Of a stretch of DNA of 17,782 nt, positions 1 to 17,782 are shown one piece after another (position 1 is the first letter of the stretch; every line of letters begins with the position of its first letter). The stretch comes from Methanomicrobiales archaeon. Lineage in GTDB: Archaea > Halobacteriota > Methanomicrobia > Methanomicrobiales > JACTUA01. The DNA is taken from NCBI GenBank assembly GCA_028678815.1, contig JAJRCS010000055.1:1-17782 (forward strand), given 5' to 3'. The notes beneath the pieces were generated by a model. That model was not told where the DNA came from, did not search any database, and saw only the letters and a list, made by a program, of their open reading frames with translations. Made by a program: the position numbers and the translations under genes.

Positions 1-688
1 GGTCGGGGCGTACGAGAACCTCGGGTGCCCCTGGTCGGAGCACGTGGCCATGGCCCGGGCGGATCCCGGGGAGAACCGGTGCCTGGACCTGGCACGCCGG
101 CACTTCCCGGCCACCCTGGGGGCCGTCCCCCCGCGGCTCATCAGCGTCTTCGATACCTCCCCGAACGAGAGCTCCTTCGTCTCCCGGGAGAAGCTCGCCG
201 GGTTCCTCGAGGGGGTCCTCCGGATGATGGAGGAGGACCCCTCCTCCGGCTACCTCTTCAAGATGAAGACCCCGTGGGAGGAGATCGCCCGGGACTTCCC
301 GGACCTCGCCCCGCTCTACGAGCGGATCCGGGCGTCCCCCCGGTGCCTCCTCCTGGAGGCGCTCTCCTCGGAGGTTTCGGAGGCCATCGCCATCTCGGAC
401 CTCGTGGTATCGGCCTGCTTCACCTCCCCCACCATCGAGGCCCTGGGGGCCCGGCAGAAGGCCATCTACTACGATGCCGACGGCTCTTTCAGGGGCTGCT
501 ACTATGACCGGTTCCCCCGGCTGGTCGCCCATGGTTACGGGGAGCTCCGGGAGATCGTGGACTACTGGCTCACCGCTGCCACCCGGGAGGACCTCGACCG
601 GTTCCTGGACACGCAGGTGCGGGGCGAGCTGGATGCCTTCGTGGACGGGAAGGGGATAACCCGGTTCCGGGCCATGCTCCTCGCCTGA
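1..688 (+). CDS. C-terminal part of a polysaccharide-biosynthesis protein with a PFTS-like motif (5' truncated)
   Basis: The reading frame is open from base 2 to a TGA at 686-688, so the gene begins left of the window; the ATG at 44 is internal. About 228 residues are visible. The C-terminal part resembles the second half of GT-B-fold enzymes: a stretch reading SDLVVSACFTSPTIEAL is followed by KAIYYDADG. This matches the pattern of bacterial and archaeal surface-carbohydrate proteins named for a PFTS motif, with Cys in place of Pro here. Such proteins occur in O-antigen and nonulosonic-acid clusters, but their reaction is poorly defined. The gene runs toward the leftward operon and is separated from it by a hairpin. 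It is probably the last gene of a glycan operon lying to the left. The family assignment is from memory of the motif; a glycosyltransferase or a UDP-sugar epimerase-like enzyme are alternatives. Confidence 0.6.
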   Translation, partial: VGAYENLGCPWSEHVAMARADPGENRCLDLARRHFPATLGAVPPRLISVFDTSPNESSFVSREKLAGFLEGVLRMMEEDPSSGYLFKMKTPWEEIARDFPDLAPLYERIRASPRCLLLEALSSEVSEAIAISDLVVSACFTSPTIEALGARQKAIYYDADGSFRGCYYDRFPRLVAHGYGELREIVDYWLTAATREDLDRFLDTQVRGELDAFVDGKGITRFRAMLLA

Positions 689-707
689 ACCCGAAGGCGG
701 CCGGGCA

Positions 708-732
708 CGGGGGAGGATTCCGCCCTCCCCCG
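708..732. terminator. Inverted repeat between convergent genes
   Basis: Two 9-base arms, CGGGGGAGG (708-716) and CCTCCCCCG (724-732), are perfect inverted complements around a 7-base loop. They lie in the 46-base gap between two convergent genes. The hairpin could end transcription from both sides or stabilise both 3' ends. There is no T-run after it on either strand, so intrinsic archaeal termination, which relies mostly on T-tracts, is not supported directly. Confidence 0.45.
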
Positions 733-734
733 GC

Positions 735-2147
735 TTACCGGCTCTCCGTGAGGGGAATCGCCGGGAATGCCGCCTCCGGGATCAGGTCGAGGGAGCGGAG
801 GTGCCCGAGGAACCGGAGGAGGAGCAGGTCGCTGTACCGCCGGGCAACGACCTGGACCCCGAAGGGAAGCCCCCGGGGGGAGGCGAAGGCCGGGGCACAG
901 ACCACGGGGAGGTGGGTCATGGTCCACATGAGGGCGGGATCGGGGCGCTCGGCCTCCTCCCGGGGCGGGGCCTCCCCCGCCGTCGCGAGGGAGACGAGGA
1001 TCTCCCGGTCCCCGAGGAACCGGTCCATGGAGCGGGCCATCCGCTCCTGGTCCCGCAGGGCAACCTGGTACCGGTCGACCGGGATCTCCAGGCCGGCCCG
1101 GATGAGGTCCTTCATGATGGGGGAGACGAGCTCACCCCGCCGGAACTCCTCCCGGAAGTAGTAGGAGAGGGTCTTGTTGTAGATGGTCGCATGGACCTCG
1201 TGGGCCCGCTCCATGCCGGCCGGGAGGTCCGGCTCGTCCACCACCACGTCCCCGTCGCCGGCCAGCCGGTCCACCCAGGCCCGGAGGGATCGCCGGGCAT
1301 AGGGGTGGGCCCCGTCCCAGGTATGGGTCTTTACGAGGGAGACCCTCCAGGGCCTCCCCCGGGGGAGCTCCTGCCGGCGCGGGTCCCGGAGGGCCCGGTC
1401 GCTCCGGGGGTAATTGGGGCCGTGCACCCGAAGCACGTCAAGGACCCGGGGGAGGTCGGCGAGGTGGAGGGTGAAGAACCCGACGGTGTCGAGGCTGTCG
1501 GTGGTCTTGAGCATCCCGGTCCGGGGGATGAGGCCGAAGGAGGGCTTGCAGCCGTACACACCGCAGAAGCTCGCGGGCCGGACGATGGATCCGGCGGTCT
1601 GGGTCCCGAGGGCCGCGGGCACCATCCCGCAGGCGACCGCCGCCGCGGAACCGCTCGACGAGGTCCCCGGCGTCCGGGACGGGTCATGGGGGTTCACGGT
1701 CCTCCCCGTGGTATGCACCGCGAACTCGGCGGTCACGGTCTTCCCCGGGATCACCGCGCCCGCCTGCCGGAGGGAGAAGACGGCCCGGGCATCGTTCCCC
1801 GGCGTGAAGCCCTTCCAGATGGGGCTCCCCATCTGGGTGGGGAAGTCCGCGGTGTTCATGATGTCCTTCACGCCCACCGGTATCCCCTCGAGGGGCCGGG
1901 GAGGTGCTCCCTCCCTGATCCTCCCCGCGGAGGCCCGGGCCTGGTCCAGCAGCTGCTCCGGGTCGAAGCAGGCCCATGCCGCGACCCTCCCGTCCAGGGC
2001 CTCCACCTGCCCGATGCACCGGCGGGCGACCTCCACCGGGTCCAGGGCCCCGCTCCGGTATCCCTCGAGGATGGCCCCGATGCTCAGGCCAAAGAACCCG
2101 CCTGGCACACCATCACCCCGGTTCTTCCTCCCGGGCTGCCGCGTCAC
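735..2147 (-). CDS. Amidase-signature family hydrolase (GatA-like fold)
   Basis: A 470-residue protein of normal family length. Amidase-signature enzymes hydrolyse amide bonds with a Ser-cisSer-Lys triad, and the triad is visible: Lys in VGVKDI (about residue 94), the cis-Ser in PGTSSSGSAA (about 163) and the nucleophile in TQTAGSIVRP (about 187). The C-terminal segment GLPFGVQVV is also typical. I chose the GTG at 2147 because it overlaps the TGA of the upstream amidotransferase as GTGA and has GAGG 7 bases before it; a GTG at 2108 preceded by GGTGAT is the alternative. It is the last gene of the seven-gene operon. The substrate cannot be read from sequence. The coupling to a sugar amidotransferase suggests it may release ammonia from glutamine or asparagine, as GatA does for GatB, or act on an amide of the sugar. 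A stand-alone catabolic amidase is the conservative reading. Confidence 0.88.
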   Translation of the reverse strand: MTRQPGRKNRGDGVPGGFFGLSIGAILEGYRSGALDPVEVARRCIGQVEALDGRVAAWACFDPEQLLDQARASAGRIREGAPPRPLEGIPVGVKDIMNTADFPTQMGSPIWKGFTPGNDARAVFSLRQAGAVIPGKTVTAEFAVHTTGRTVNPHDPSRTPGTSSSGSAAAVACGMVPAALGTQTAGSIVRPASFCGVYGCKPSFGLIPRTGMLKTTDSLDTVGFFTLHLADLPRVLDVLRVHGPNYPRSDRALRDPRRQELPRGRPWRVSLVKTHTWDGAHPYARRSLRAWVDRLAGDGDVVVDEPDLPAGMERAHEVHATIYNKTLSYYFREEFRRGELVSPIMKDLIRAGLEIPVDRYQVALRDQERMARSMDRFLGDREILVSLATAGEAPPREEAERPDPALMWTMTHLPVVCAPAFASPRGLPFGVQVVARRYSDLLLLRFLGHLRSLDLIPEAAFPAIPLTESR

Positions 2148-3370
2148 GATCCGGCCTCGTCCCCGGTGACCTGGAGGGGATAGGGCAGGATCTTCTCCCG
2201 GATCTTCCGTTTCCGCTTCTTCACCGGTATCCCGACCCCCTTCAGCTCGGGCAGCCGGTGCTTCTCCATGACCCGGTAGAACTCGTCCTCGGTCATGCCG
2301 GTGATCTCCAGGTAGTAGTCGAGGGCATCGGGGCGCTCGGAGTCGTACCGGCTGGCGAGGTCGAACCCCTCTTCCCGGGTGAGGAGCCCGCACCGGACGT
2401 CCATGCAGGCATGGAAGGTCCCCCGGCCGTACCCCCGCTTCAGGTAGCAGGTGAAGTCATGCATCCCGGGCATGATGCACTCGGCGCTCTTGTACCCCTT
2501 GTAGGTCCCCTCTATCTCGGTCTCCTTCCACCCGTAGGTATCCCGGACGAACTCGGTCTGCCGCTCGTCGTCCCAGAAGATGTAGTCCCCGAGGTGGATG
2601 CCCCTCACCCCGGCCTGCTCGATCTCCTCGTAGGACGGGAGCTGGAAGGGGAGGAGGTCGCGCCTCGTGATCCCGTCGGAGACCATCTGGTCCGCGGAGA
2701 GCTTGGCAGAGACCTTGGTGAAGTAGTCGCGGTCGAAGGTATGGACGGGTTTCCGGTAGGAGGCCCTGCCGGAGGACTCCGCGATGGACTCCCCCCAGAC
2801 GAGGAGGGGGATCCGGTAGCAGACGGCGACCCTGAGGGGGAACGCCCCGACCCCCGCGTGGCAGGTCCAGCAGGCATCCCCGATGGCCTCGAGGGACTTC
2901 CGGGCCAGCCGGTTGACCAGGTCCCGGTTGGGGGTGAACATGACATGGTCCACGCTGAACTTCTCGAGGGCATTCTGGAGGTTCCTCCAGCCGGTCCTGC
3001 TGTACCAGTTGTGGCTGAAGGTGACGGCGAGGGGCCTCATGCCATAGACCTTTACGAGGACGTGGAGCTGGAAGGTGCTGTCCTTGCCCCCGCTGATGGG
3101 GACGATGCAGTCATAGTTGTCCCCCGCCTTCGCCTTCGCCTCGCTGAGGATCTTCCGGAGGGCCTTCTCCCGCTTCACCCAGTCGATGTGGATCTTCTGC
3201 TCCGAGGACTGGCAGGCCTGGCAGATGCCCATCTCGTCGAAGGTGATCCCCTCCTGGGTCTCGGGCATGCAGCAGCGGCTGCAGTACTTCAGCTCCCTGA
3301 AGGGCTGCCTGCCCCGGCGCCCTGCCGGCGCCTTCCGTGCCTCAGCGGCTTTTCTTCCGGGCTTTTTCAT
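2144..3370 (-). CDS. N-acetyl sugar amidotransferase (PseA/WbpG/WbuX type)
   Basis: A 408-residue protein with the PP-loop ATP-binding motif SGGKDS at residues 93-98. It has an N-terminal cysteine cluster (Cys30, 33, 34, 50, 53, in KYCSRCCMPET and GICQAC) and a second pair in DACWTC (167, 170). This is the family that converts an acetamido group on a sugar into an acetamidino group, using ATP and ammonia: PseA makes acetamidino-pseudaminic acid in Campylobacter, and WbpG acts in Pseudomonas O-antigen synthesis. The start ATG at 3370 overlaps the preceding GNAT gene by 29 bases and has GGGAGG just upstream. The basic N-terminus (about 25 residues) is longer than needed, but no later Met precedes Cys30. 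WbpG-type enzymes usually work with HisH/HisF-like glutaminase and channel proteins; none is seen here, and an amidase follows with a GTGA overlap. Confidence 0.92.
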   Translation of the reverse strand: MKKPGRKAAEARKAPAGRRGRQPFRELKYCSRCCMPETQEGITFDEMGICQACQSSEQKIHIDWVKREKALRKILSEAKAKAGDNYDCIVPISGGKDSTFQLHVLVKVYGMRPLAVTFSHNWYSRTGWRNLQNALEKFSVDHVMFTPNRDLVNRLARKSLEAIGDACWTCHAGVGAFPLRVAVCYRIPLLVWGESIAESSGRASYRKPVHTFDRDYFTKVSAKLSADQMVSDGITRRDLLPFQLPSYEEIEQAGVRGIHLGDYIFWDDERQTEFVRDTYGWKETEIEGTYKGYKSAECIMPGMHDFTCYLKRGYGRGTFHACMDVRCGLLTREEGFDLASRYDSERPDALDYYLEITGMTEDEFYRVMEKHRLPELKGVGIPVKKRKRKIREKILPYPLQVTGDEAGS

Positions 3371-3911
3371 GCTCCTCCCGGGTCATGCCGAACTCCAGGA
3401 TGTCGAGGTACCGCCCGTCCTTCCAGGCGGCCTCCCTCCTCCGCCCCTCCTCCTGCATCCCGAGGGACCGGGCGAGGCGCTGCATGGGGAGGTTGTTCTC
3501 GTAGGTGCCGCAGCCGATCCGGTGGAGGTTCAGGGCCGAGAAGCCGTGGCTGCAGAGGAGCTCGCAGGCCTCCCCCGCGTACCCCTTCCCCCACGAGGCC
3601 TTCTCCCCGATGATGATGGCGAGCTCGGCGGAGAGGCAGACGGGATTGATCCTCTGGAGGGCGATGTTCCCGATGTGCCGGCCGTCCTTCTTCAGGGTGA
3701 TGGCAAGGATCAGCTCGTCCCGGGCAGCCCGGGCCCGGGCGAGGTACTCCCCGGCCTCGGCCGGGGTGAAGGGGAAGACATGGTGGCTGTTCCCGGCGCA
3801 GACCTCGGCGTCGTTCAACCAGGAGAGGTACGGGCCCGTGCAGTCCTCCTCCCTGAGGGGACGGAGGGCGACCCTCCTCCCGGAGAGGAATATCGTCGGA
3901 TCCCGGTTCAT
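3342..3911 (-). CDS. GNAT-family N-acetyltransferase (RimJ/RimL-like, PseH/SpsD-like role)
   Basis: A 189-residue GNAT protein. The acetyl-CoA-binding segment reads SWGKGYAGEA (residues 106-115), and the C-terminal part LNLHRIGCGTYENNLPMQRLARSLGM is typical of the RimJ/RimL branch (that stretch spans roughly residues 127-151). In nonulosonic-acid clusters such enzymes (PseH, LegH, SpsD) acetylate the amino group installed by the neighbouring aminotransferase, which fits the gene order here. The ATG at 3911 follows the TAG of the aminotransferase with no gap (TAGATG) and is in the same frame. The end overlaps the amidotransferase start. The exact amino-sugar substrate is unknown. Confidence is high for the family and moderate for the role. 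Confidence 0.88.
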   Translation of the reverse strand: MNRDPTIFLSGRRVALRPLREEDCTGPYLSWLNDAEVCAGNSHHVFPFTPAEAGEYLARARAARDELILAITLKKDGRHIGNIALQRINPVCLSAELAIIIGEKASWGKGYAGEACELLCSHGFSALNLHRIGCGTYENNLPMQRLARSLGMQEEGRRREAAWKDGRYLDILEFGMTREEHEKARKKSR

Positions 3912-5183
3912 CTACAGTTCCTCCAGCGCGCCGAAGACCTTCTGAAATCCCCCGGCAACGTCATCCAGATCCTCTCTCGTGACCTGCGCATGGCACACCC
4001 CCGTATACATCAGTTCATCGTAGTACATCCGTTCCGTGACGGGACAGATGCCCTTCCGGTAGTCCACCGTCCCGGTATACCCCGGGTAGGTGAAGGGGAA
4101 CCCGTCCCGCCCGAAGGCGATCCGCTGCTGGTACAGGGGCTGGAGGTAGATGGGCTCGACGTACCCGTTCACCACCGGGATGCCCTCGGCGACGAGGGCC
4201 GCGACCACCTTCTCCCTCGGGATCCCCGATCCTGCTCCCGTGTACCGCATCGCGTACAGGTAATACCCGTGCTTCACGCCGGGGCGGACGCGGGGCGGCA
4301 GGAGGCCCCTCGTGCCCTCCAGCCTGCCGGTGAGGTACGCCGCGGCCTCCTGCCGTGCCGCCACCAGCCGGTCGAGCTTCTTCAGCTGCTCCCGGGCGAT
4401 GGCTGCCTCGATCTCCGTCATCCGGTAGTTCCACCCGACCATGTTCACGAGGTCCTTCACGCCCCGGGCCTTCACCGCCACCTCGGCATGGTTCCGGATC
4501 ATCTGGACCCGCTCCGCGAGGGCGGGATCGTCGGTCACCACCATGCCGCCCTCGCCGCAGTGGATGGTCTTGTGGTAGTTCAGGGAGAAGACCCCCAGGT
4601 GGGCCAGGGTCCCCGCGGGCTTCCCGTTGAGGGAGGCGCCGGGCGCCTGGGCGGCATCCTCGATGACGGTGAGGTCATGGTCCCGGGCCAGGTCCATGAT
4701 CCCGTCCATGTCGGCCGGGTGCCCGAAGAGGTCCACCGCGATGACGGCCCGGGTCCGCGGCGTGAGCCGGGCCGCGATGGTGTCCGGGCTGATGCAGAAG
4801 GTTTCGGGATCGATGTCGGCAAAGACCGGGATGCCGCCGTAGATGAGCGCGGCGGTGGCCGAGGCGGTCATGGTGTAGGGGGAGACGATGACCTCGTCCC
4901 CCGGGCCGACCCCCGCCGCCCCCACCGCGGCGTAGAGCCCCGAGGTGGCGGAGTTGACGCTCACCGCGTGCCGGGCCCCGAACCGGGATGCCCACTCGGC
5001 CTCGAGGGCCCGGACCTGGGGCCCGCCGAGGTAGTCGGGTCCCCAGACGGCGAGGAACCGGGAGAGGACCGTGCTCTCGAGGACCCCGAGGACCGCCCGC
5101 TTCTCCTCCTCGCCGATGGTCACGCAGGCTGGGAAGGGACGGTCCCGTACGGGTCTCCCTCCCTTTACCGCGAGCCGCTCCAT
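3912..5183 (-). CDS. DegT/DnrJ/EryC1/StrS-family PLP sugar aminotransferase
   Basis: A 423-residue enzyme of the family that transfers an amino group, usually from glutamate, to a keto-sugar using PLP. Visible signatures are SVNSATSGL near residue 80 (phosphate binding), IEDAAQAPGA (Asp176 and Gln179) and the PLP lysine in NYHKTIHCGEGG (Lys205). The N-terminus LAVKGGRPVR is of the StrS type rather than the usual PseC start, so this may not be the C4 aminotransferase acting after PseB. It follows a Gfo/Idh/MocA dehydrogenase gene and a GT-B-like gene and precedes an acetyltransferase, which suggests amination of a keto group made by the dehydrogenase. The ATG at 5183 has GGAGG 6 bases upstream and overlaps the previous gene by 19 bases. 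It ends in TAG, directly followed by ATG of the next gene. Confidence 0.93.
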   Translation of the reverse strand: MERLAVKGGRPVRDRPFPACVTIGEEEKRAVLGVLESTVLSRFLAVWGPDYLGGPQVRALEAEWASRFGARHAVSVNSATSGLYAAVGAAGVGPGDEVIVSPYTMTASATAALIYGGIPVFADIDPETFCISPDTIAARLTPRTRAVIAVDLFGHPADMDGIMDLARDHDLTVIEDAAQAPGASLNGKPAGTLAHLGVFSLNYHKTIHCGEGGMVVTDDPALAERVQMIRNHAEVAVKARGVKDLVNMVGWNYRMTEIEAAIAREQLKKLDRLVAARQEAAAYLTGRLEGTRGLLPPRVRPGVKHGYYLYAMRYTGAGSGIPREKVVAALVAEGIPVVNGYVEPIYLQPLYQQRIAFGRDGFPFTYPGYTGTVDYRKGICPVTERMYYDELMYTGVCHAQVTREDLDDVAGGFQKVFGALEEL

Positions 5184-6331
5184 GACCCCCCTCCCCGACC
5201 GGATCCCTCAAGCATCCCCGTGATCAGCTGGACCACCCGTGCCGTGGCATCGCCGCCGGGAGAGGCCGATCGGAGGCGTTTCCTGTACTCCTCACGGACC
5301 CCTCTCCGGCAGAGCATCTCCTGCAGTACAGGTTCTATTTCTCCCTCTGAATAAACTGCACGGCTCAGGCCGTCACGGTTGGAGGGGAGGGGATCGGGGA
5401 GACGGGGGGATGGCTGGATGGAAACGACCGGGGTACCGAGGTAGCAGGCCTCGAGGAGGAGAACGCTCGTCATCCCGGTGACGAGGTCGGCTGCCATGGC
5501 CGTCTCCAGCCGGTCGCCGCCCTCCTGGACCAGGACCCGGATATGCTCCCCCTTCCACCGCCGGAGATCCCCTGCCTTCTCCCTCGGGTGGGGGCGGAGG
5601 ACGCAGGCGATCTTCCGCCCCTCCGCATGGCCGATCCGGTCCAGGGCCCGGATGACCGCGGGGATGACGCTCCTCTCCGTGTATCCGGGGAAGAGGGGGT
5701 TCTCCGCCGATTCCCCGGAGAGGGAGGAGACGGGCTGGGAGGCGAAGAGAACGAAGGCCTCGCCAGGGGCAAGCCCGAGCCCCTTCCTCACCGCGTCCCG
5801 CCTCCCGCGGGTGAACCCGGCCCTCAGCCGGGGAAGCCGGTCGAAGGCCGGCTGGCCCGTGACCTCGATCCGCTCTGCCGGGAACCCCTCGGCCACCATC
5901 TCTGCCCTGGCCCGGTCGTCCATGACGGCGATGATGTCCGGGAGGTCCGAGAGGTCACCTGCGGGATCGGCCCACCGCCTCCGGTAGTTCGTCCAGAAGT
6001 CGAGGATCGAGAGGGAGGGTATCCCCAGGTCCCGGGCTGCGGCGATGAAGACCCTCTCCAGCTGGTCCGGGTTCACGGAGCTCCCCGTGACGAGGGCCTT
6101 CGCCTGCTCGCGGGCAAGGAGATCCCTGGCAGCATCGCGGGACAGGGCGCCGGTCAGGGGCGCTGCCCTGAGGCCCCGGGCCTCCCAGAGGCGGATCGCC
6201 TCGCGGTAGGGGAAGAGGGCGGGGCGCACCCTGCCATCCCCGAGGAGCCGCTCGAGCACCGGTGCAAGGGCCTCGGCACCGCCGGGATCCCCCGCCACCG
6301 CGACAACGCAGGGCGCGGTCTCCCTACCCAT
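5165..6331 (-). CDS. GT-B-like protein of a surface-glycan operon, specific function unknown
   Basis: A 388-residue protein. The N-terminus (VVAVAGDPGGAEALAPVLE) looks like the first Rossmann strand of a GT-B fold. The C-terminal half contains VTGQPAFDRL, an arginine-proline-rich VLRPHP and MTSVLLLEACYLGTPVVS, which together resemble the nucleotide-sugar side of glycosyltransferases, 2-epimerase-like enzymes and polysaccharide proteins such as CDP-glycerol transferases. The start of PseG (a GHVMR-type motif) is not present, so a UDP-sugar hydrolase role is not supported by motif. I chose the ATG at 6331 over an ATG at 6388 because upstream residues are non-conserved and overlap the preceding gene; the chosen start overlaps it by 8 bases (ATGGGTAG). 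Candidate roles are a glycosyltransferase or the missing UDP-releasing enzyme of the nonulosonate pathway. Confidence 0.68.
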   Translation of the reverse strand: MGRETAPCVVAVAGDPGGAEALAPVLERLLGDGRVRPALFPYREAIRLWEARGLRAAPLTGALSRDAARDLLAREQAKALVTGSSVNPDQLERVFIAAARDLGIPSLSILDFWTNYRRRWADPAGDLSDLPDIIAVMDDRARAEMVAEGFPAERIEVTGQPAFDRLPRLRAGFTRGRRDAVRKGLGLAPGEAFVLFASQPVSSLSGESAENPLFPGYTERSVIPAVIRALDRIGHAEGRKIACVLRPHPREKAGDLRRWKGEHIRVLVQEGGDRLETAMAADLVTGMTSVLLLEACYLGTPVVSIQPSPRLPDPLPSNRDGLSRAVYSEGEIEPVLQEMLCRRGVREEYRKRLRSASPGGDATARVVQLITGMLEGSGRGGGSWSGSR

Positions 6332-7331
6332 GCCCGCCACCCGGGAGCCGGACCTGCCGCCCTTCCCGGGAGGAGCGGCGGATGGCATGCCCTATCCTCA
6401 GGGCCGCGAGGGCATCCTCCCCGGTACAGAGGGGCTCCCCGCCTTCCCTGAGGCACCGCACCAGGTCCCTGACCGCGAAGAGGGGCAGGTCCCCGAAGCC
6501 ATCGGTTCCGGTTTCCCGGACCACGAGGCTCCGGTAACCGGTGTAGTGGGGGCTGTCGCCGACGGTCGATATCTCGATCCGGTGGCCGGATTCCAGGATG
6601 CGGATCCGGCCCGCGCTCCCCAGGATATCGGCCTCGAAGATGCTGAAGGACCGGTGATCGCATGCCCTGAGAAAGCCGGAGGCCCCGTTCCCGAAGGTGA
6701 GCAGGGCATCCAGGGTCGGGTCCGGACCCCCCTCCCGGAGCGTATCGAATCCCCGGACCGAGACCACCTCGCCGACGAGGAACCGGGCCAGGTCGAACCA
6801 GTGGGTCCCGTTGTGGAGGCACCCCCTGGTGTAGGAGCCCTGGATCGACCGGACCGTCCCGATGGCTCCCCCTGCGATGAGATCGCGCATCCTCTGGTGG
6901 TTCGGTGCATAGCGGCGGGAGTAGTTCACGGCGAGGATCACCCCGGCCTCCCTCGCACGGCTGACCAGGCGTGCCCCCTCCGCGGGGTCCAGGGCAAGGG
7001 GCTTCTCGGCGAGGACGGCCTTCACCCCGGGGGTGGCGAGAACCCTGCCGAGGATCTCCGCGTGGGTGCTGTCCGGCGTGCAGATGCTCACCATCCCGGG
7101 TGCCGCCTCCTCCAGCATGACCCGGTAGTCCTGGTACCTGGCAGGCACCTGCCAGCGCTCGCCGCACCTCTCGACTCTCTCAGCATCGCTGTCGCAGACG
7201 GCGACGAGGGTGGTGTCCGGGCAGGCGGTGTAGGCCCCCGCATGGGTCGAGACACCCTTGATCCGGGGATCGTCGGCATACGCACTGCCCATCATGCCGC
7301 ACCCGATGAGGGCTGCCCGGAAGGCCATCAT
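6324..7331 (-). CDS. Gfo/Idh/MocA-family NAD(P)-dependent sugar oxidoreductase
   Basis: A 335-residue protein. It has a Rossmann motif ALIGCGMMG (residues 7-15), the family EKP motif in AEKPLAL (109-111), CTPDSTH (84-90) and GTHWFDLARFL with a likely catalytic His (177). Family members oxidise a ring hydroxyl of a sugar or nucleotide sugar to a keto group, or the reverse. WbpB does this at C3 before the aminotransferase WbpE in Pseudomonas O-antigen synthesis. Here a DegT aminotransferase, a GNAT and an amidotransferase lie downstream, so a comparable oxidation-then-amination step is likely, on an unknown sugar. Two ATGs are adjacent: that at 7331 overlaps the upstream TGA as ATGA, and that at 7328 has better spacing from GGTGA. 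It ends in TAG; the frame beyond is not conserved, so this TAG is a true stop. Confidence 0.9.
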   Translation of the reverse strand: MMAFRAALIGCGMMGSAYADDPRIKGVSTHAGAYTACPDTTLVAVCDSDAERVERCGERWQVPARYQDYRVMLEEAAPGMVSICTPDSTHAEILGRVLATPGVKAVLAEKPLALDPAEGARLVSRAREAGVILAVNYSRRYAPNHQRMRDLIAGGAIGTVRSIQGSYTRGCLHNGTHWFDLARFLVGEVVSVRGFDTLREGGPDPTLDALLTFGNGASGFLRACDHRSFSIFEADILGSAGRIRILESGHRIEISTVGDSPHYTGYRSLVVRETGTDGFGDLPLFAVRDLVRCLREGGEPLCTGEDALAALRIGHAIRRSSREGRQVRLPGGGHG

Positions 7332-8062
7332 CTCACCTTCTTCTGCATGACGTGGCGGTTGATCAGGGGGAGTTCGGGCCGGCGCCTGAAGAGCTCCAGG
7401 ATGTCCCCCAGGCCGAAGTCCTTCTTCACCGGGCAGAGCTCCTCGAAGATGGTGCGGATCAGGGTGAAGTCCTCGGGGGTGTCGAGGGTGAGCCGGAGGT
7501 CCCCGCACCCCGGGGGAAGGCCGCTCCCGACGTTCCGGAGGGAGAACCGCTCCGGGTGCTCGTAGATGTAGAGGGAGACATGCTCATGGTCGACCGGGTC
7601 GGCGGTGAGCCGGCTCACCTCGGAGAGGACCGCCCGGGAGAAGACCTGGGTATCCATCCCCCTTGGGAAGGTCCTCTCCAGGGTATTGGAGACATAATCA
7701 GCGGAACCGGCCTGGTAGGTCTCCACGACCCGGTCCACGATGGCGGGATCGATGAGCGGGCAGTCACCCGTCACCTCGACGATGGTATCGACCCGCCCTG
7801 CCTCCGCCGCCCTGAGCACCCGGTCCAGCACATCCAGCTCGCTCCCCCGGAAGCAGCCCACCGGGAGCTCCTCTGCCAGGTCCGCGATGGGATCATCGGC
7901 TGCATTGACGGTGGTGGCGACAATGATGGCATCGAGGGTCCCTGCCCTCTCCAGCCTCTCGACGAGGTGAGCGAGGAGGGGCCTCCCGAGGACCGGGAAG
8001 AGGACCTTCCCCGGTAACCGGGTGGAGGTCATCCGCGCTTCGATAATGGCCGCTGTCTTCAT
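7328..8062 (-). CDS. SpsF-like cytidylyltransferase, copy 1 (probable CMP-nonulosonate synthetase)
   Basis: A 244-residue member of the cytidylyltransferase family that includes SpsF, NeuA, PseF and KdsB. The nucleotide-binding segment IIEARMTSTRLPGKVL is at residues 6-21, VTGDCPLIDP near 100, RTFPRGMDTQV near 130, and HEHVS and LTLDTPEDF further on. In this family the enzyme joins CMP to a nonulosonic acid so that a transferase can use it. It is the first gene of the leftward seven-gene operon and lies head-to-head with the RmlD-like gene of the nonulosonate synthase operon. A clear paralogue lies at 11395-12132. Which sugar each copy activates cannot be decided from sequence. The ATG at 8062 has only a weak AAGG-type ribosome site. 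Confidence 0.9.
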   Translation of the reverse strand: MKTAAIIEARMTSTRLPGKVLFPVLGRPLLAHLVERLERAGTLDAIIVATTVNAADDPIADLAEELPVGCFRGSELDVLDRVLRAAEAGRVDTIVEVTGDCPLIDPAIVDRVVETYQAGSADYVSNTLERTFPRGMDTQVFSRAVLSEVSRLTADPVDHEHVSLYIYEHPERFSLRNVGSGLPPGCGDLRLTLDTPEDFTLIRTIFEELCPVKKDFGLGDILELFRRRPELPLINRHVMQKKVR

Positions 8063-8209: not shown

Positions 8210-9145
8210 ATGACAGAGACAGGATCCCTCCTTCTCACGGGGGCAAGCGGCCTCCTCGGCTCCAACTTCGCCCTGGCCGCCGCCGCACGGGGGCTCGACG
8301 TCACCGCGGTCTACCACCGGAACCCGGTCCGGTTTCCCGGGATCAGGGGGCTGCGCCTGGACCTCACCGACGAGAGAGGAGTAACGGAGGCGGTCGCCTC
8401 CACAAGGCCTGACTGGATCGTCCATTGCGCCGCCGAGACGAGGGTCGACTGGTGCGAGGATCACCCGGAGGACTGCTCCCGCGTGAACGAGGGGGCGACC
8501 GGAACCCTTGCCCGGGCGGCCTCGGAGATCGGGGCCTCCCTGCTGTACGTGTCCACCGACTCGGTATACCCGGGGGACAGGGGGAACTACACCGAGGATG
8601 ACCGCACTGGCCCGGTGAACCACTACGGGAGGACGAAACTCCGGGGTGAGGGGGCGGTGAGGGCCACCCCCGGGGACCACCTCATTATCCGGACGAACAT
8701 CTTCGGCTGGAACCTCCAGGAGAAGCAGAGCCTCGCCGAGTGGTTCCTCGCCCATCTCGAGGGGGGGAGGACGGTGCCGGGGTTCCGGGACGTGATCTTC
8801 ACCCCCGTCCTCGTGAACGAGCTGGCAGAGATCTGCCTCGCCCTCATGGCCGCGGGTGCGACCGGCACGTACAACTGCGGGAGCCCGGAACCCTGCAGCA
8901 AGTACGAGTTCGGGGTCTCCGTGGCGAGGACCTTCGGCCTCGACCCCGGCCTGGTCCGCCCGATCCGGCAGGAGGAACTGGGGCTGCGTGCCCCCCGGCC
9001 CCTGGACACATCTTTAAATTCCCGGAAAATGCACCATCTCTTGAAACGGCCCGTACCCGGCCTCCCCGACCAGCTGATCCGGTTCCGGCTGCTCAGGGAA
9101 TCCGGGTATGCGGCGCGGTTGCGATCCTTCAGCGGGGGGCTTTGA
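8210..9145 (+). CDS. RmlD-like NAD(P)-dependent sugar reductase (extended SDR)
   Basis: A 311-residue extended short-chain dehydrogenase. The NAD(P) motif TGASGLLG is at residues 10-17, VHCAAETRVDWCE near 71-83, STDSVYPG near 115-122 and the catalytic YGRTK (Tyr139, Lys143). This pattern fits the dTDP-4-dehydrorhamnose reductase (RmlD) branch, whose members reduce a 4-keto group of a nucleotide-activated deoxysugar. RmlA, RmlB and RmlC are not seen nearby, so the substrate may differ; a reductase for a nonulosonate or its precursor is possible. It is the first gene of a rightward operon with nonulosonate synthase, whose ATG lies one base after this TGA. Around codons 268-270 (TCT TTA AAT) the codon use is strikingly AT-rich for this genome and creates a TATA-like sequence. 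Confidence 0.85.
   Translation: MTETGSLLLTGASGLLGSNFALAAAARGLDVTAVYHRNPVRFPGIRGLRLDLTDERGVTEAVASTRPDWIVHCAAETRVDWCEDHPEDCSRVNEGATGTLARAASEIGASLLYVSTDSVYPGDRGNYTEDDRTGPVNHYGRTKLRGEGAVRATPGDHLIIRTNIFGWNLQEKQSLAEWFLAHLEGGRTVPGFRDVIFTPVLVNELAEICLALMAAGATGTYNCGSPEPCSKYEFGVSVARTFGLDPGLVRPIRQEELGLRAPRPLDTSLNSRKMHHLLKRPVPGLPDQLIRFRLLRESGYAARLRSFSGGL
9011..9020 (+). promoter_or_regulatory. Possible internal TATA element (CTTTAAATT) inside the RmlD-like gene
   Basis: TCTTTAAATT is a near-ideal archaeal TATA sequence inside the 3' part of the reductase gene, in a GC-rich setting. A start of transcription would be expected near 9040, giving a leader of roughly 105 bases before the NeuB-like gene at 9147. 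It could allow the synthase and the glycosyltransferase to be transcribed separately from the reductase. The residues encoded there (DTSLNS) look conserved for the family, so only the codon choice is unusual. Confidence 0.35.
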
Positions 9146-9146
9146 C

Positions 9147-10217
9147 ATGATGCAGGTCAGGACGGGAACCCGGAGGATAGGTCACGGGGCTCCGGCGTAC
9201 TTCATTGCCGATATCGCGTCGAACCATGACGGTGACCTGGAGCGGGCGAAGGAGCTCATCCGGCTCGCGGCAGGGGCGGGTGCGGATGCCGCGAAGTTCC
9301 AGAGCTTCCGGGCAGAGAAGATCGTCAGCGACTACGGGTTCTCCCACCTGGGCACACAGGTCTCCCACCAGGCATCATGGAAAAAGCCCGTCTTCCAGGT
9401 CTACCAGGAGGCCTCGGTTCCCTGGGGGTGGATGCGTGAGCTCAGGGCCGAGTGCGACCGGGCGGGGATAGACTTCTTTTCCACGCCCTATGATCTCGAG
9501 GCCGTGGAGATGCTGGACCCCCTGGTGGAGATCTTCAAGATCGGGTCCGGCGACATCACCTGGCCGGAGCTGCTCCGGGCCGTGGCGGCGAAGGGAAAAC
9601 CGGTCATCCTGTCGACGGGGGCATCGGAGCTCGGGGAGGTCAGGGAGGCAGTCCGGATCATCGCCGGGATCAACCCCCGGATCTGCCTCCTCCAGTGCAA
9701 CACCAATTATACCGGGTCCCGGGAGAACCTGAGGCACATCAACCTGAACGTGCTGAGGACCTACCAGGCTCTCTTTCCCGATGCCATCCCCGGTCTCTCG
9801 GATCACACCGGCGGCCACCTCACCGTCCTCGGTGCCGTCGCCCTCGGGGCAAAGGTCATCGAGAAGCACTTCACCGACGACGATTCCCGGGAGGGGCCCG
9901 ACCACCGGTTCTCCATCACCCCGGGCGCCTGGAGGGCCATGGTCGGGGAGACGAGGGAGCTCGAGGCCGCCCTGGGGAGCACCGAGAAGATCGTCGAGGA
10001 GAACGAGCAGGAGACCGCGGTCATCCAGAGGAGGTGCATCCGGGCCGCCCGCCCGCTGGCCGCCGGGACGACCCTCCTGCGCGGGGATCTCGAGATGCTC
10101 CGGCCCGCACCTCCCGACTCGATACCTCCCTCCCGGGTAGAGGAGGTCATCGGGAAGCGGATCCGTTCTCCCCTGGTCCGGGGGGATTACCTGCGCTGGT
10201 CAGGGCTCGAACCCTGA
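9147..10217 (+). CDS. NeuB-family nonulosonic acid synthase (sialic/pseudaminic/legionaminic type)
   Basis: A 356-residue, two-domain enzyme that condenses phosphoenolpyruvate with a six-carbon 2-acetamido sugar to form a nine-carbon nonulosonic acid. The N-terminal TIM barrel shows FIADIASNHDGD, AAKFQSF, FFSTPYD and IFKIGSGD. The two metal-binding histidines of the family lie in LSDHT and EKHF, about residues 220 and 241, 21 apart as in Neisseria NeuB. After QRRC (about 295) a C-terminal SAF/antifreeze-like domain closes the active site of the dimer partner. The segment LLQCNTNYTG replaces the common HC-x-x-x-YP motif and marks a subgroup I cannot assign to one sugar. The start ATG at 9147 is one base after the previous TGA, with a G-run 8 bases upstream; an adjacent ATG at 9150 is equally possible. 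It is the only nonulosonate synthase in the window. Confidence 0.94.
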   Translation: MMQVRTGTRRIGHGAPAYFIADIASNHDGDLERAKELIRLAAGAGADAAKFQSFRAEKIVSDYGFSHLGTQVSHQASWKKPVFQVYQEASVPWGWMRELRAECDRAGIDFFSTPYDLEAVEMLDPLVEIFKIGSGDITWPELLRAVAAKGKPVILSTGASELGEVREAVRIIAGINPRICLLQCNTNYTGSRENLRHINLNVLRTYQALFPDAIPGLSDHTGGHLTVLGAVALGAKVIEKHFTDDDSREGPDHRFSITPGAWRAMVGETRELEAALGSTEKIVEENEQETAVIQRRCIRAARPLAAGTTLLRGDLEMLRPAPPDSIPPSRVEEVIGKRIRSPLVRGDYLRWSGLEP

Positions 10218-12195: not shown

Positions 12196-13185
12196 CTACC
12201 CTTCATGGGATCCCTTGATGAGGTCCCGGAGGTCCCCGGCGCTGAGCCACTGGGGATTCTCGTTGCTCGTGTAATGGAAGCCCTCGGGGACCGGCCTCGC
12301 ATGGTCCCAGTGGGGGTTGTGGAGCCAGGGGCTGGAGGGGAGGATGACGAACCGGTCCGCGAGTTCCCGGGTCTGGGGGGCCTCGTCGGGGGAGATGAGC
12401 ACCTCGTGGATCTTCTCGCCGGCCCGGACGCCGATGTACTCGATCCCTGCCGAGGGTGCGATGGCCTTTGCGAGATCCATGATATTCATGCTCGGGATCC
12501 GGGGGACGAAGACCTCCCCGCCGTGCATCTCCTCGATGCTCTGGATCACGAAGTTCACGCCCTGGTCGAGGGTGATCCAGAACCGGGTCATCCGGGGGTC
12601 GGTGATGGTGATCTTGCCGTTCTTCCTCTGCTCGAGGAAGACGGGGACGACGCTCCCCCGGCTCCCGACGACGTTCCCGTACCGGGTGCAGGAGAAGACG
12701 GGCTTCCCGCCGCCCGCGTAGGTGTTCCCGTTCACGAAGAGCTTCTCGGCACAGAGCTTCGTCGCCCCGTAGAGGTTGACGGGGTTCACCGCCTTGTCCG
12801 TGGAGAGGGCCATCACCTTCTCCACCCCCTGGTCGATGGCGGCGTCGATGATGTTCTTCGCCCCCATGATGTTCGTCTGGATGGCCTCGAAGGGGTTGTA
12901 CTCGCACGCGGGGACCTGCTTCAGGGCCGCGGCATGGACCACGATGTCCACGCCATGCATTGCCCGGTTGAGCCGGTCCTGGTCCCGCACATCCCCGATG
13001 AAGTACCGGATGGGCGACCCGGGGGTATCCGGGTAGATTCCCCGCATCTCGTGCTGCTTCAGCTCGTCCCGGCTGAAGATGATGAGCTTCTTCGGCCGGT
13101 ACTTCGCGAGCAGGATCCCGGTGAACTTCCTCCCGAAGGAGCCCGTACCACCCGTAATGAGCACAGTCTGTGATTCCCAGTCCAT
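12196..13185 (-). CDS. pseB: PseB/FlaA1-type UDP-GlcNAc 4,6-dehydratase (5-inverting)
   Basis: A 329-residue extended SDR closely fitting the PseB (FlaA1) family, the first step of pseudaminic acid synthesis: UDP-GlcNAc to UDP-2-acetamido-2,6-dideoxy-L-arabino-hexos-4-ulose. Signatures are LITGGTGSFG (9-18), FSRDELKQHEM, HAAALKQVPACEYNP, and the catalytic STDKAVNPVNLYGATK with Thr129, Asp130, Lys131, Tyr139 and Lys143. These line up with the Helicobacter FlaA1 active site with a two-residue offset. TRYGNVVGSRGSV and the C-terminal YTSNENPQWLS are also family features. Length is normal, so the TAG at 12196-12198 is a natural end. A UDP-D-QuiNAc-type dehydratase of the same family is the alternative, but the short soluble form argues for PseB. 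A TATA-like element sits 51 bases upstream; the ribosome site is weak. Confidence 0.93.
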   Translation of the reverse strand: MDWESQTVLITGGTGSFGRKFTGILLAKYRPKKLIIFSRDELKQHEMRGIYPDTPGSPIRYFIGDVRDQDRLNRAMHGVDIVVHAAALKQVPACEYNPFEAIQTNIMGAKNIIDAAIDQGVEKVMALSTDKAVNPVNLYGATKLCAEKLFVNGNTYAGGGKPVFSCTRYGNVVGSRGSVVPVFLEQRKNGKITITDPRMTRFWITLDQGVNFVIQSIEEMHGGEVFVPRIPSMNIMDLAKAIAPSAGIEYIGVRAGEKIHEVLISPDEAPQTRELADRFVILPSSPWLHNPHWDHARPVPEGFHYTSNENPQWLSAGDLRDLIKGSHEG

Positions 13186-15249: not shown

Positions 15250-16434
15250 TCATCCACCCTTCCCGGGCCCGGGGCGGGCCGCCTTCCCCAGGAGGAGGGG
15301 GAGGAGGTCCGCCGCCTCCCTGAGCCCGAGGGATCCCCCCGCCGCCTCCCGCTCGGTGAGCCGGCGGCAGCCGTCCGTGCCGATGCCCCGGACGGCAAAG
15401 GGCACCGGGTCGGCGGTGTGGGTCTTCAGCCGGATGGGGGTGGGGTGATCGGGGAGGACGGCGACGATGCCATCGAAGCTCTCCAGGATCTTCCCGAGCA
15501 TGCCGTCCACCCGCTCGATGGCCCTCACCTTCTCCTCCACCGAGCCCATGTGCCCGGCCTCGTCCGGGGCCTCGACGTGGAGGTAGAGGAAGTCGGAGCG
15601 CTCCAGGGCATCCCTCCCGTACCGGGCCTTCGCATCATAGTCGGTATCCAGGTACCCGGTCGCACCGGGCACCCGGATCACCTCCATCCCCGCGAGCCGG
15701 GCGATCCCGTTCAGGAGGTCCACCGCCGAGATCATGGCGCCGGAGACCCCGTACCGGTCCCGGAAGGGCTGGAGCCGGGGGGTTCTCCCGCCGCTCCAGG
15801 GCCAGATCATGGTCGCCGGGCGCTCGCCGCGGGCGATACGCTCCCGGTTCACCGGCTGCGCCCGGAGGATCTCCCGGGACCGCTCCATGGCCCGGATGAG
15901 CCGGGGGGCATCCTCTCCCTTCGGCAGGTAGGGGCCGGTGGGCTGCCCGACGATGTCATGGGGCGGCGTGGTCTCCGCCCCCGATCCATCCGGTACCACC
16001 ATGAGGTTCCGGTACGAGATCCCGGCATGGAGGGAAACCCCGTCCATCCCGGCGGCCACCGCCCGGATGAGGGGCGCCCCCTCGCGGCTCGGGATGTGGC
16101 CGGCCGAGAAGTCCTCCATCACGCCGTCCCTGACGGTCACCAGGTTGCACCGGTAGGCGATGTCCCCCCGCCCGAGGGAGATGCCCATGCTCGCCGCCTC
16201 GAGGGGGCCGCGGCCGGTGTAGTGCTCCCTCGGGTCATAGCCCAGGATGGAGAGGCTCGCGATGTCGGAGCCGGCCTCGCAGCCGGGGGGGATGGTCCGG
16301 AGGAGACCGCAGGCCCCCTCCCGGGCGATCCGGTCGAAGCTCGGCGTCCGGGCCGCCTCGAGGGGGGTCCTCCCGCCGAGCTCCGGGAGGGGCTCGTCGG
16401 CCATCCCGTCGCCGAGGACGAGGAGGACCTTCAC
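15250..16434 (-). CDS. apgM: Cofactor-independent phosphoglycerate mutase family protein (ApgM-like; proposed homoserine kinase branch)
   Basis: A 394-residue member of the alkaline-phosphatase superfamily. A metal-binding Asp lies in LVLGDGMAD (residue 9), the serine that carries the phosphate is probably in AGSDIASLSILGYDP (Ser56), and metal ligands occur in HVEAPDEAGH and LPDHPTP. The pattern YTGRGPLEAASMGI, YRCNLVT, SAGHIPS, TPPHDI and PATMIWPW fits the branch labelled cofactor-independent phosphoglycerate mutase or proposed alternative homoserine kinase (TIGR02535-like) more than classic archaeal ApgM. It may interconvert 2- and 3-phosphoglycerate in gluconeogenesis or phosphorylate homoserine. 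The start is GTG 16434 with AGGGG upstream; it overlaps the TGA that ends the extended frame of the GalE-like gene (GTGA), implying the two were translationally coupled. Confidence 0.88.
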   Translation of the reverse strand: MKVLLVLGDGMADEPLPELGGRTPLEAARTPSFDRIAREGACGLLRTIPPGCEAGSDIASLSILGYDPREHYTGRGPLEAASMGISLGRGDIAYRCNLVTVRDGVMEDFSAGHIPSREGAPLIRAVAAGMDGVSLHAGISYRNLMVVPDGSGAETTPPHDIVGQPTGPYLPKGEDAPRLIRAMERSREILRAQPVNRERIARGERPATMIWPWSGGRTPRLQPFRDRYGVSGAMISAVDLLNGIARLAGMEVIRVPGATGYLDTDYDAKARYGRDALERSDFLYLHVEAPDEAGHMGSVEEKVRAIERVDGMLGKILESFDGIVAVLPDHPTPIRLKTHTADPVPFAVRGIGTDGCRRLTEREAAGGSLGLREAADLLPLLLGKAARPGPGKGG

Positions 16435-16514
16435 CGCCCATCCCCTGCCGTGGCCCGGGCGGCGGCCGTCACGCTCTCCCGGGAGCCCATGCCGGGCCTC
16501 CACCCGAGGCCCTA
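16431..16514 (-). other. In-frame amber codon and conserved C-terminal tail of the GalE-like gene
   Basis: On the minus strand the TAG at 16514-16512 is followed in frame by 26 sense codons, beginning GLGWRPGMGSRESV, and then TGA at 16433-16431. GW-R/K-P followed by a short helix is how GalE-like proteins normally end, so this is coding sequence by family comparison from memory. With the tail the protein would be 312 residues, the usual length. The final TGA overlaps the GTG start of the next gene as GTGA, as coupled genes do elsewhere in this window. The TAG is therefore a nonsense mutation, a sequencing error, or a codon that is read through (for example as pyrrolysine). Confidence 0.75.
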
Positions 16515-17369: not shown

Positions 17370-17408
17370 GAGAGCTTATTTGCCCCCCCATGTAAAATAC
17401 CTGTTCGC
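17370..17408. promoter_or_regulatory. Divergent promoter region of the epimerase and LigD-like genes
   Basis: Only 39 bases separate the two opposite starts. On the minus strand GTATTTTACA (17400-17391) lies about 26 bases before ATG 17369, so the epimerase transcript may start at or next to its ATG. On the plus strand CTTATTTG (17375-17382) lies about 30 bases before ATG 17409, giving a leader of a few bases at most. Neither gene has a clear ribosome site, which fits leaderless transcripts. The two elements overlap the opposite promoter, so the genes may compete for transcription. Confidence 0.5.
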
Positions 17409-17782
17409 ATGGCAGGGAACCGGCAGGGTCCCCTTACAAAGGTCGAATTCACCCACCTCCCGAAGGTCCTCTATCCGGAGGCAGGGATCACCAAGCTCCA
17501 GGTGATCAAGTACTTCATCCGGATCGCCCCGAGGATCCTCCCCTTCCTCGCGGGGAGGCCCCTCGTCCTCACCCGGTACCCCGGCGGGGTGGGCGGGAAG
17601 GGCTTCTACGAGAAGGACGCGCCGATGGGGACCCCGGACTGGGTCGAGACCTACGAGCACTACTCCGAAACAGCGGAGAAGGTGGTCCACTTTATCGTCT
17701 GCAATAACCTGGACACCCTCCTCTGGGTTGCGAACCTGGATGCCCTCGAGCTCCACCTGATCCTCGCCCCTGTCCGGTCACC
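17409..17782 (+). CDS. ligD: LigD-type polymerase/primase domain protein of non-homologous end joining (3' truncated)
   Basis: The frame runs from ATG 17409 past the right edge; 124 residues are visible. KVLYPEAGITK, VIKYFIRIAP, GRPLVLTRYPGGVGGKGFYEKDAP, TPDWVETY and TLLWVANLDALELH follow the order of the LigD polymerase domain (archaeo-eukaryotic primase superfamily), which fills in DNA or RNA at broken ends during Ku-dependent end joining. In archaea this domain is often a separate protein next to ligase and Ku genes. The catalytic aspartates lie beyond the window edge, so activity cannot be judged, and a fusion to a ligase or nuclease domain cannot be excluded. The start has no ribosome site but a TATA-like element about 30 bases upstream, suggesting a leaderless transcript. 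Confidence 0.85.
   Translation, partial: MAGNRQGPLTKVEFTHLPKVLYPEAGITKLQVIKYFIRIAPRILPFLAGRPLVLTRYPGGVGGKGFYEKDAPMGTPDWVETYEHYSETAEKVVHFIVCNNLDTLLWVANLDALELHLILAPVRS

Follow-up and report, generated by a model that had tools for sequence, protein, structure and literature searches.

Among the described systems, the WbuX/WbpG/PseA sugar amidotransferases come closest to the locus analysed here. They are PP-loop enzymes with a Cys motif that are encoded in glycan gene clusters and work with the HisH/HisF-like partners WbuY and WbuZ. The combination of a PP-loop ATP pyrophosphatase with an ammonia-producing module is familiar from GMP synthetase, NAD synthetase and asparagine synthetase, whose ammonia modules are of the class I, nitrilase or Ntn type. 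To our knowledge, no PP-loop enzyme has an ammonia module of the amidase-signature type, and GatB, the partner of the amidase-signature protein GatA, is not a PP-loop enzyme. GatA of the GatCAB complex does, however, set a precedent for an amidase that passes ammonia to its partner, which it does via a tunnel (PMC4027206).

Many microbes have surface sugars marked by acetamidino groups, whose biosynthetic enzymes are described as little studied (PMC10607449). The same paper, which reports the structure of a family member, gives as family hallmarks the PP-loop SGGXDS and a tetracysteine motif, CXXC...[GN]XCXXC; amidase, HisH and HisF go unmentioned in its main text. WbuX is listed together with HisF2 and HisH in PMC11340318. 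We found no published description of a WbuX–amidase pair in the open-licence PMC literature, which does not in itself prove novelty. The locus described below shares the PP-loop family, the Cys motif and the type of glycan cluster with the WbuX/WbpG/PseA systems, but differs from them in that the partner is an amidase-signature protein rather than WbuY/WbuZ, that its WbuX belongs to a separate branch, and that the two proteins are often fused.

Gene content of the locus

The window, a stretch of 17,782 nucleotides from a Methanomicrobiales archaeon, is the entire contig JAJRCS010000055.1 of a 71%-complete assembly (GCA_028678815.1), so that the flanks of the contig cannot be seen. Its relevant features are as follows, where fractions of 80 refer to the amidase-type family loci surveyed further below.

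735..2147, minus strand: amidase-signature enzyme, 470 aa from a GTG start (PF01425, 252 bits; cut-off 27)
Base 2108, minus strand: alternative GTG start of the amidase at codon 14 (from the sequence)
1866..1868, minus strand: amidase catalytic Lys94 (K in all 81 aligned family members)
1659..1661, minus strand: amidase cis-Ser163 (S in 81 of 81; aligned with Ser131 of malonamidase E2)
1587..1589, minus strand: amidase nucleophile Ser187 (S in 81 of 81; aligned with Ser155 of malonamidase E2)
1578..1580, minus strand: amidase Arg190, at the Arg158 position of malonamidase E2 (R in 80 of 81 sequences, K in the other)
2144..2147, minus strand: GTGA start/stop overlap of the amidase GTG with the WbuX TGA (from the sequence; start choice uncertain)
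2144..3370, minus strand: WbuX-type PP-loop N-acetyl sugar amidotransferase, 408 aa (TIGR03573, 350 bits; cut-off 203.2)
3077..3094, minus strand: WbuX PP-loop SGGKDS, residues 93-98 (the same in all 58 aligned fusions)
3342..3911, minus strand: GNAT acetyltransferase overlapping the WbuX start; cassette gene (PF13302; homologue in 67 of 80 loci)
3912..5183, minus strand: DegT/DnrJ aminotransferase, PseC-like; cassette gene (PF01041, 307 bits; 63 of 80 loci)
5165..6388, minus strand: PseG-like or surface carbohydrate protein, the first label being our own (weak match, TIGR04396 at 22.7 bits, below the cut-off of 125; 38 of 80 loci)
6324..7334, minus strand: Gfo/Idh/MocA oxidoreductase; cassette gene (PF01408; 59 of 80 loci)
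7328..8062, minus strand: cytidylyltransferase, CMP-sugar synthase type (PF02348; 24 of 80 loci)
9108..10217, plus strand: NeuB-family nonulosonate synthase (PF03102, 244 bits; 43 of 80 loci)
12196..13185, minus strand: PseB, UDP-GlcNAc 4,6-dehydratase (inverting) (TIGR03589, 489.8 bits; cut-off 407.75)

Both genes of the pair lie where the sequence-only reading had placed them, and their family assignments are borne out by the profile scores. In addition to its TIGR03573 score, the translated WbuX carries the complete set of family hallmarks, with C30xxC33 and GxC50xxC53 (G48-I-C50-Q-A-C53) as the tetracysteine motif and SGGKDS at residues 93-98; it is a predicted maker of acetamidino sugars. 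The amidase combines its PF01425 score with the full Lys-cisSer-Ser triad (K94/S163/S187) that had been claimed for it, and none of the NCBIfam equivalog models scored above its cut-off against this protein. A further claim, that the two genes overlap as GTGA, fared less clearly: the four letters are present at 2147-2144, but the overlap is not certain, because an amidase start 13 codons further in is no less likely. The database record of the protein (P0003, 457 aa) uses this later start, which also agrees better with most relatives in an alignment judged by eye and would leave a gap of ~35 nt to WbuX. A scan of window positions 600-3500 for promoters and terminators found none.

Judging from their domain matches, the genes around the pair are a nonulosonate-type sugar cluster, and the window encodes two cytidylyltransferases. 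The cluster is flanked by an apgM-type phosphoglycerate mutase (15250-16503) and by the beginning of a LigD-type primase-polymerase frame (17403-17780).

Recurrence of the amidase–WbuX pair

The sequence-only reading predicted that the adjacency of the two families would recur. When species genomes were scanned with amidase sequences alone, each of the 80 best loci (out of 378) was found to carry a WbuX homologue adjoining the amidase and in the same orientation, and the prediction thus proved correct. These loci span 23 named phyla, with 76 loci from Bacteria, three from Archaea and one without assignment. According to a recount, WbuX lies upstream of the amidase in 77 loci, in one frame with it in two and downstream in one. 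The sole downstream case is L122; in L076, a long open frame begins ahead of WbuX. Moreover, 38 contigs are apparently common to the best-120 protein match lists of the amidase and of WbuX. An overlap of the two genes is possible in 53 of 76 scored loci, 26 times as ATGA, in a scoring that used the furthest upstream start found within 60 nt and is therefore biased toward overlap.

We rejected chance adjacency as an explanation, since WbuX stands beside all 80 of these amidases versus none of 29 generic GatA-like amidase loci, which were fetched with ~1.5 kb on each side and drawn from 143 genomes of the window's order with a GatA-like amidase. The pair is real, widespread and well defined. Within the window's own order (150 genomes), 144 genomes have an amidase match at 1e-30, which extends over the whole length in the window genome only and is partial in the other 143. 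Since the nearest tree rows of the window pair are bacterial, the pair was probably acquired horizontally. A search of plasmids with the amidase at 1e-60 gave no match, and one with WbuX at 1e-40 gave four.

HisH/HisF genes at WbuX loci

The absence of HisH/HisF-like genes from the window, noted earlier from the sequence, was confirmed, with no HisH/HisF-like match on the contig. Nor did anything in the host assembly score above the HisH or WbuZ model cut-off, which is weak evidence given that 29% of the genome is missing. One gene of this assembly, L011, was first taken as HisH; it proved weak as a query and is presumably a GMP-synthase amidotransferase subunit. Because of this weakness, the counts given here are based on HisH and HisF profiles seeded with L079 and L073 and then extended by the matches that these gave.

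Within 3 kb of the amidase-linked WbuX, HisH/HisF genes were found in none of the 80 loci. In 54 of these, the sequence extends for ~3 kb or further to either side of the pair, and in 50 it extends for 5 kb or further to either side of the amidase. Strong HisH/HisF genes occur in only three of the loci (L073, L078 and L079), and there they lie beside a second, amidase-free WbuX; L105 and L123 gave HisH matches of 18-20 bits only. Each of these three is a single sugar locus with both an amidase and a HisH/HisF system, and the two amidotransferases perhaps serve two acetamidino positions on one sugar.

WbuX genes at large were surveyed in two phylum samples, using TIGR03573 placements because our own A2 profile misses some distant WbuX. 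In the phylum of L078 (297 genomes; E-value limit 1e-40), 39 of the 40 WbuX above the cut-off were examined: 31 have HisH/HisF nearby, seven have neither partner and one has an amidase, this last case being the centre genome's own fusion. The phylum of L070 (398 genomes; E-value limit 1e-58) contributed 50 of 53 WbuX, the three left out being those of the centre genome; HisH/HisF accompany 39, and 11 are without either partner in reach. One of these 11, L256, belongs to the amidase type; its amidase lies 2.2 kb from WbuX. By eye, the intervening stretch (L256:2820-4381) encodes a PIG-L-like deacetylase and a methyltransferase.

HisH/HisF thus lie beside 70 of the 89 sampled WbuX, compared with none of the 80 amidase-linked ones, and HisH/HisF and amidase together were found at 0 of 89, in line with the mutual exclusion that had been predicted. 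Neither partner is nearby in 17 of 89 cases (7 + 10; several on short contigs), so a neighbouring partner is not always needed. In an annotated HisH-type locus on a plasmid, hisH overlaps WbuX by 4 bases, which is the slot that the amidase takes here. A HisH/HisF partner is usual, though not universal, in the TIGR03573 family and is missing beside the WbuX of the window, where the amidase seems to take its slot.

The amidase-linked WbuX also separate in phylogenetic trees, where they all fall on one side of a single branch. This branch comprises 75 rows in the smaller tree (SH-aLRT 99) and 76 rows (SH-aLRT 100) in the larger one, which adds the 32 of 50 WbuX from the second phylum sample that the A2 profile found over 200 residues. 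Both are quick trees without bootstrap, and both leave out six of the 80 loci in which WbuX is cut at a contig end. The smaller tree has two HisH/HisF-type rows on long branches owing to a wrong reading frame (L197 and L202), and with these rows replaced in the larger tree the amidase-linked WbuX still form a single branch.

Fusion proteins

A search with the L078 fusion as query (E <= 1e-60; scoring covered the 7996 candidates with the most shared words) returned 102 proteins, which we classified with our own profiles as 66 complete WbuX–amidase fusions (58 standard and 8 longer), 5 partial ones and 31 proteins without an amidase. WbuX comes first in all 66 complete fusions. The eight longer proteins (1123-1183 aa; P0279, P0281, P0282, P0284, P0286, P0289, P0290 and P0295) carry, between WbuX and the amidase, an additional WbuX-like domain. 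As its SGGKDS motif is lost in all three sequences that were inspected, this domain looks like a pseudo-enzyme copy.

In a tree built from the joined pairs, six switches between the fused and the unfused state are seen, at least four of them by the starred branches. An example of an unfused pair is that of Massilia sp. Root351 (L109). The partner distances in 73 unfused pairs are correlated (0.86), which shared ancestry alone could explain. An AF2 model of one fusion (pLDDT 88.1, pTM 0.78) suggests, without proving it, that the two halves have a defined packing; the VIA-align listing covers mainly the amidase half and is therefore uninformative on the WbuX half.

Proposed function of the pair

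Recurrent adjacency together with the exclusion of HisH/HisF supports a dedicated two-part enzyme. In view also of the recurrent fusions and of the conserved catalytic residues in both halves, we consider it fairly probable that the amidase and WbuX act as a single functional unit, an acetamidino-sugar synthase of two often fused parts in which the amidase supplies the ammonia. In such an enzyme, the PP-loop half would activate the acetamido group of the sugar with ATP, and the amidase half would split a small amide and pass the ammonia on, replacing HisH/HisF. The ammonia released by the amidase would be what WbuX uses, an acetamidino sugar would be the product, and the unfused pairs would presumably be physically coupled as well. 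An ammonia role of the amidase is likely on these sequence-based grounds. A two-part sugar amidotransferase had already been proposed in the sequence-only reading, and this core of the proposal gains from the pairing and the HisH/HisF exclusion; the likeness to GatA that accompanied it does not hold in detail, as discussed below.

The sugar cassette offers a different view of the amidase. Its three genes (Gfo/Idh, aminotransferase and GNAT) are all present in 40 of 50 well-flanked amidase-type loci. Within ~4.5 kb, they occur in 53, 58 and 64 of 74 amidase-type loci, respectively, compared with 9, 23 and 7 of 83 sampled comparison loci, which are mainly of the HisH/HisF type, with some partnerless ones, L256 and some short ones included. 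The cassette suggests a predicted order of oxidation, amination, acetylation and amidination, which would fit the acetamidino assignment. Because the cassette accompanies the amidase type, the amidase could be tied to the sugar pathway rather than to ammonia: it would then hydrolyse an amide of the sugar or of an intermediate, either ahead of the amidination or following it, and WbuX would use free ammonia or a HisH/HisF pair encoded elsewhere. Such a role would agree with the lack of a GatA-type glutamine site and with the deacetylase and methyltransferase genes that lie between WbuX and amidase in L256. The 66 fusions, however, link the amidase with WbuX, and this counts against a separate pathway step, although a fusion may also join consecutive steps, since WbuX–GNAT fusions exist (six proteins, one of them checked: P0317, P0323, P0324, P0327, P0330 and P0332). 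The pairing with WbuX is also stricter than that with any cassette gene (80 of 80 loci, against 67 for GNAT, 63 for the aminotransferase and 59 for Gfo/Idh, some misses being due to contig ends), and for this reason we still favour ammonia supply. In L052, the pair is kept although the 21 kb of the locus yielded no Gfo/Idh, aminotransferase or GNAT gene. Furthermore, the WbuX of the amidase branch should need ammonia, yet they lack the usual HisH/HisF alongside. On this evidence, we regard a role of the amidase as a sugar-pathway step as rather unlikely, though worth keeping in view as the chief alternative.

Amidase type and possible ammonia donor

If the amidase does supply ammonia, GatA suggests itself as a model, and the sequence-only reading had drawn on this analogy. 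GatA shares the amidase-signature fold and the catalytic triad with the amidase of the window. The best match in a sequence search of solved structures was, however, malonamidase E2 (252 bits), with GatA giving a lower and less full match (189 bits), and malonamidase E2 was also the top match in Foldseek. The triad and the Arg158 position of malonamidase E2 (PDB 1obi, 1ocl and others) are both found in the amidase, where R190 aligns with Arg158. In contrast, the amidase scores 173 bits with the GatA model TIGR00132, far under the cut-off of 481.1.

The two differ further in the glutamine site, for which we assume, partly on the basis of an alignment, that R334 and D418 of yeast GatA fall on two GatA motifs. 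These are the residues that recognise glutamine in the yeast protein (PMC4027206). When 12 family members were aligned with 12 archaeal-type GatA-like sequences, both the Arg (EV(K/Q/R)RRIMLGT) and the Asp (MYLSDILTVPANLAG) of GatA were missing from the amidase family, and the position of the Asp fell within a 9-residue gap. From the sequences, it is thus unlikely that the amidase is a GatA-like glutaminase with GatA's mode of glutamine binding, and we give this possibility little weight.

For the proposed two-part synthase, the donor would probably not be bound in the way that GatA binds glutamine and may instead be a short amide with a carboxylate. A fuller version of the proposal can be put forward more tentatively, as plausible but short of probable: a widespread and horizontally spread synthase in which a malonamidase-like amidase channels ammonia to the PP-loop enzyme from a donor not bound in the GatA manner, as a non-homologous replacement of HisH/HisF. 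That the two genes are plain operon neighbours without a direct functional link is scarcely credible, even though shuffling of sugar clusters between genomes is common, given the adjacency in 80 of 80 loci, the 23 named phyla, the 66 fusions and the single WbuX branch.

If true, the proposal would extend the range of ammonia modules of PP-loop enzymes by one more type. Fusions occur in cultured bacteria, for example in Solidesulfovibrio alcoholivorans DSM 5433 (L078) and Thalassospira (L070), and a one-chain enzyme with both halves would allow the reaction to be tested in a single protein and the feeding amide to be revealed. WbuX is found in other domain combinations as well, fused with a partial formyltransferase domain in P0319 and placed behind an APS-kinase-like domain in P0328.
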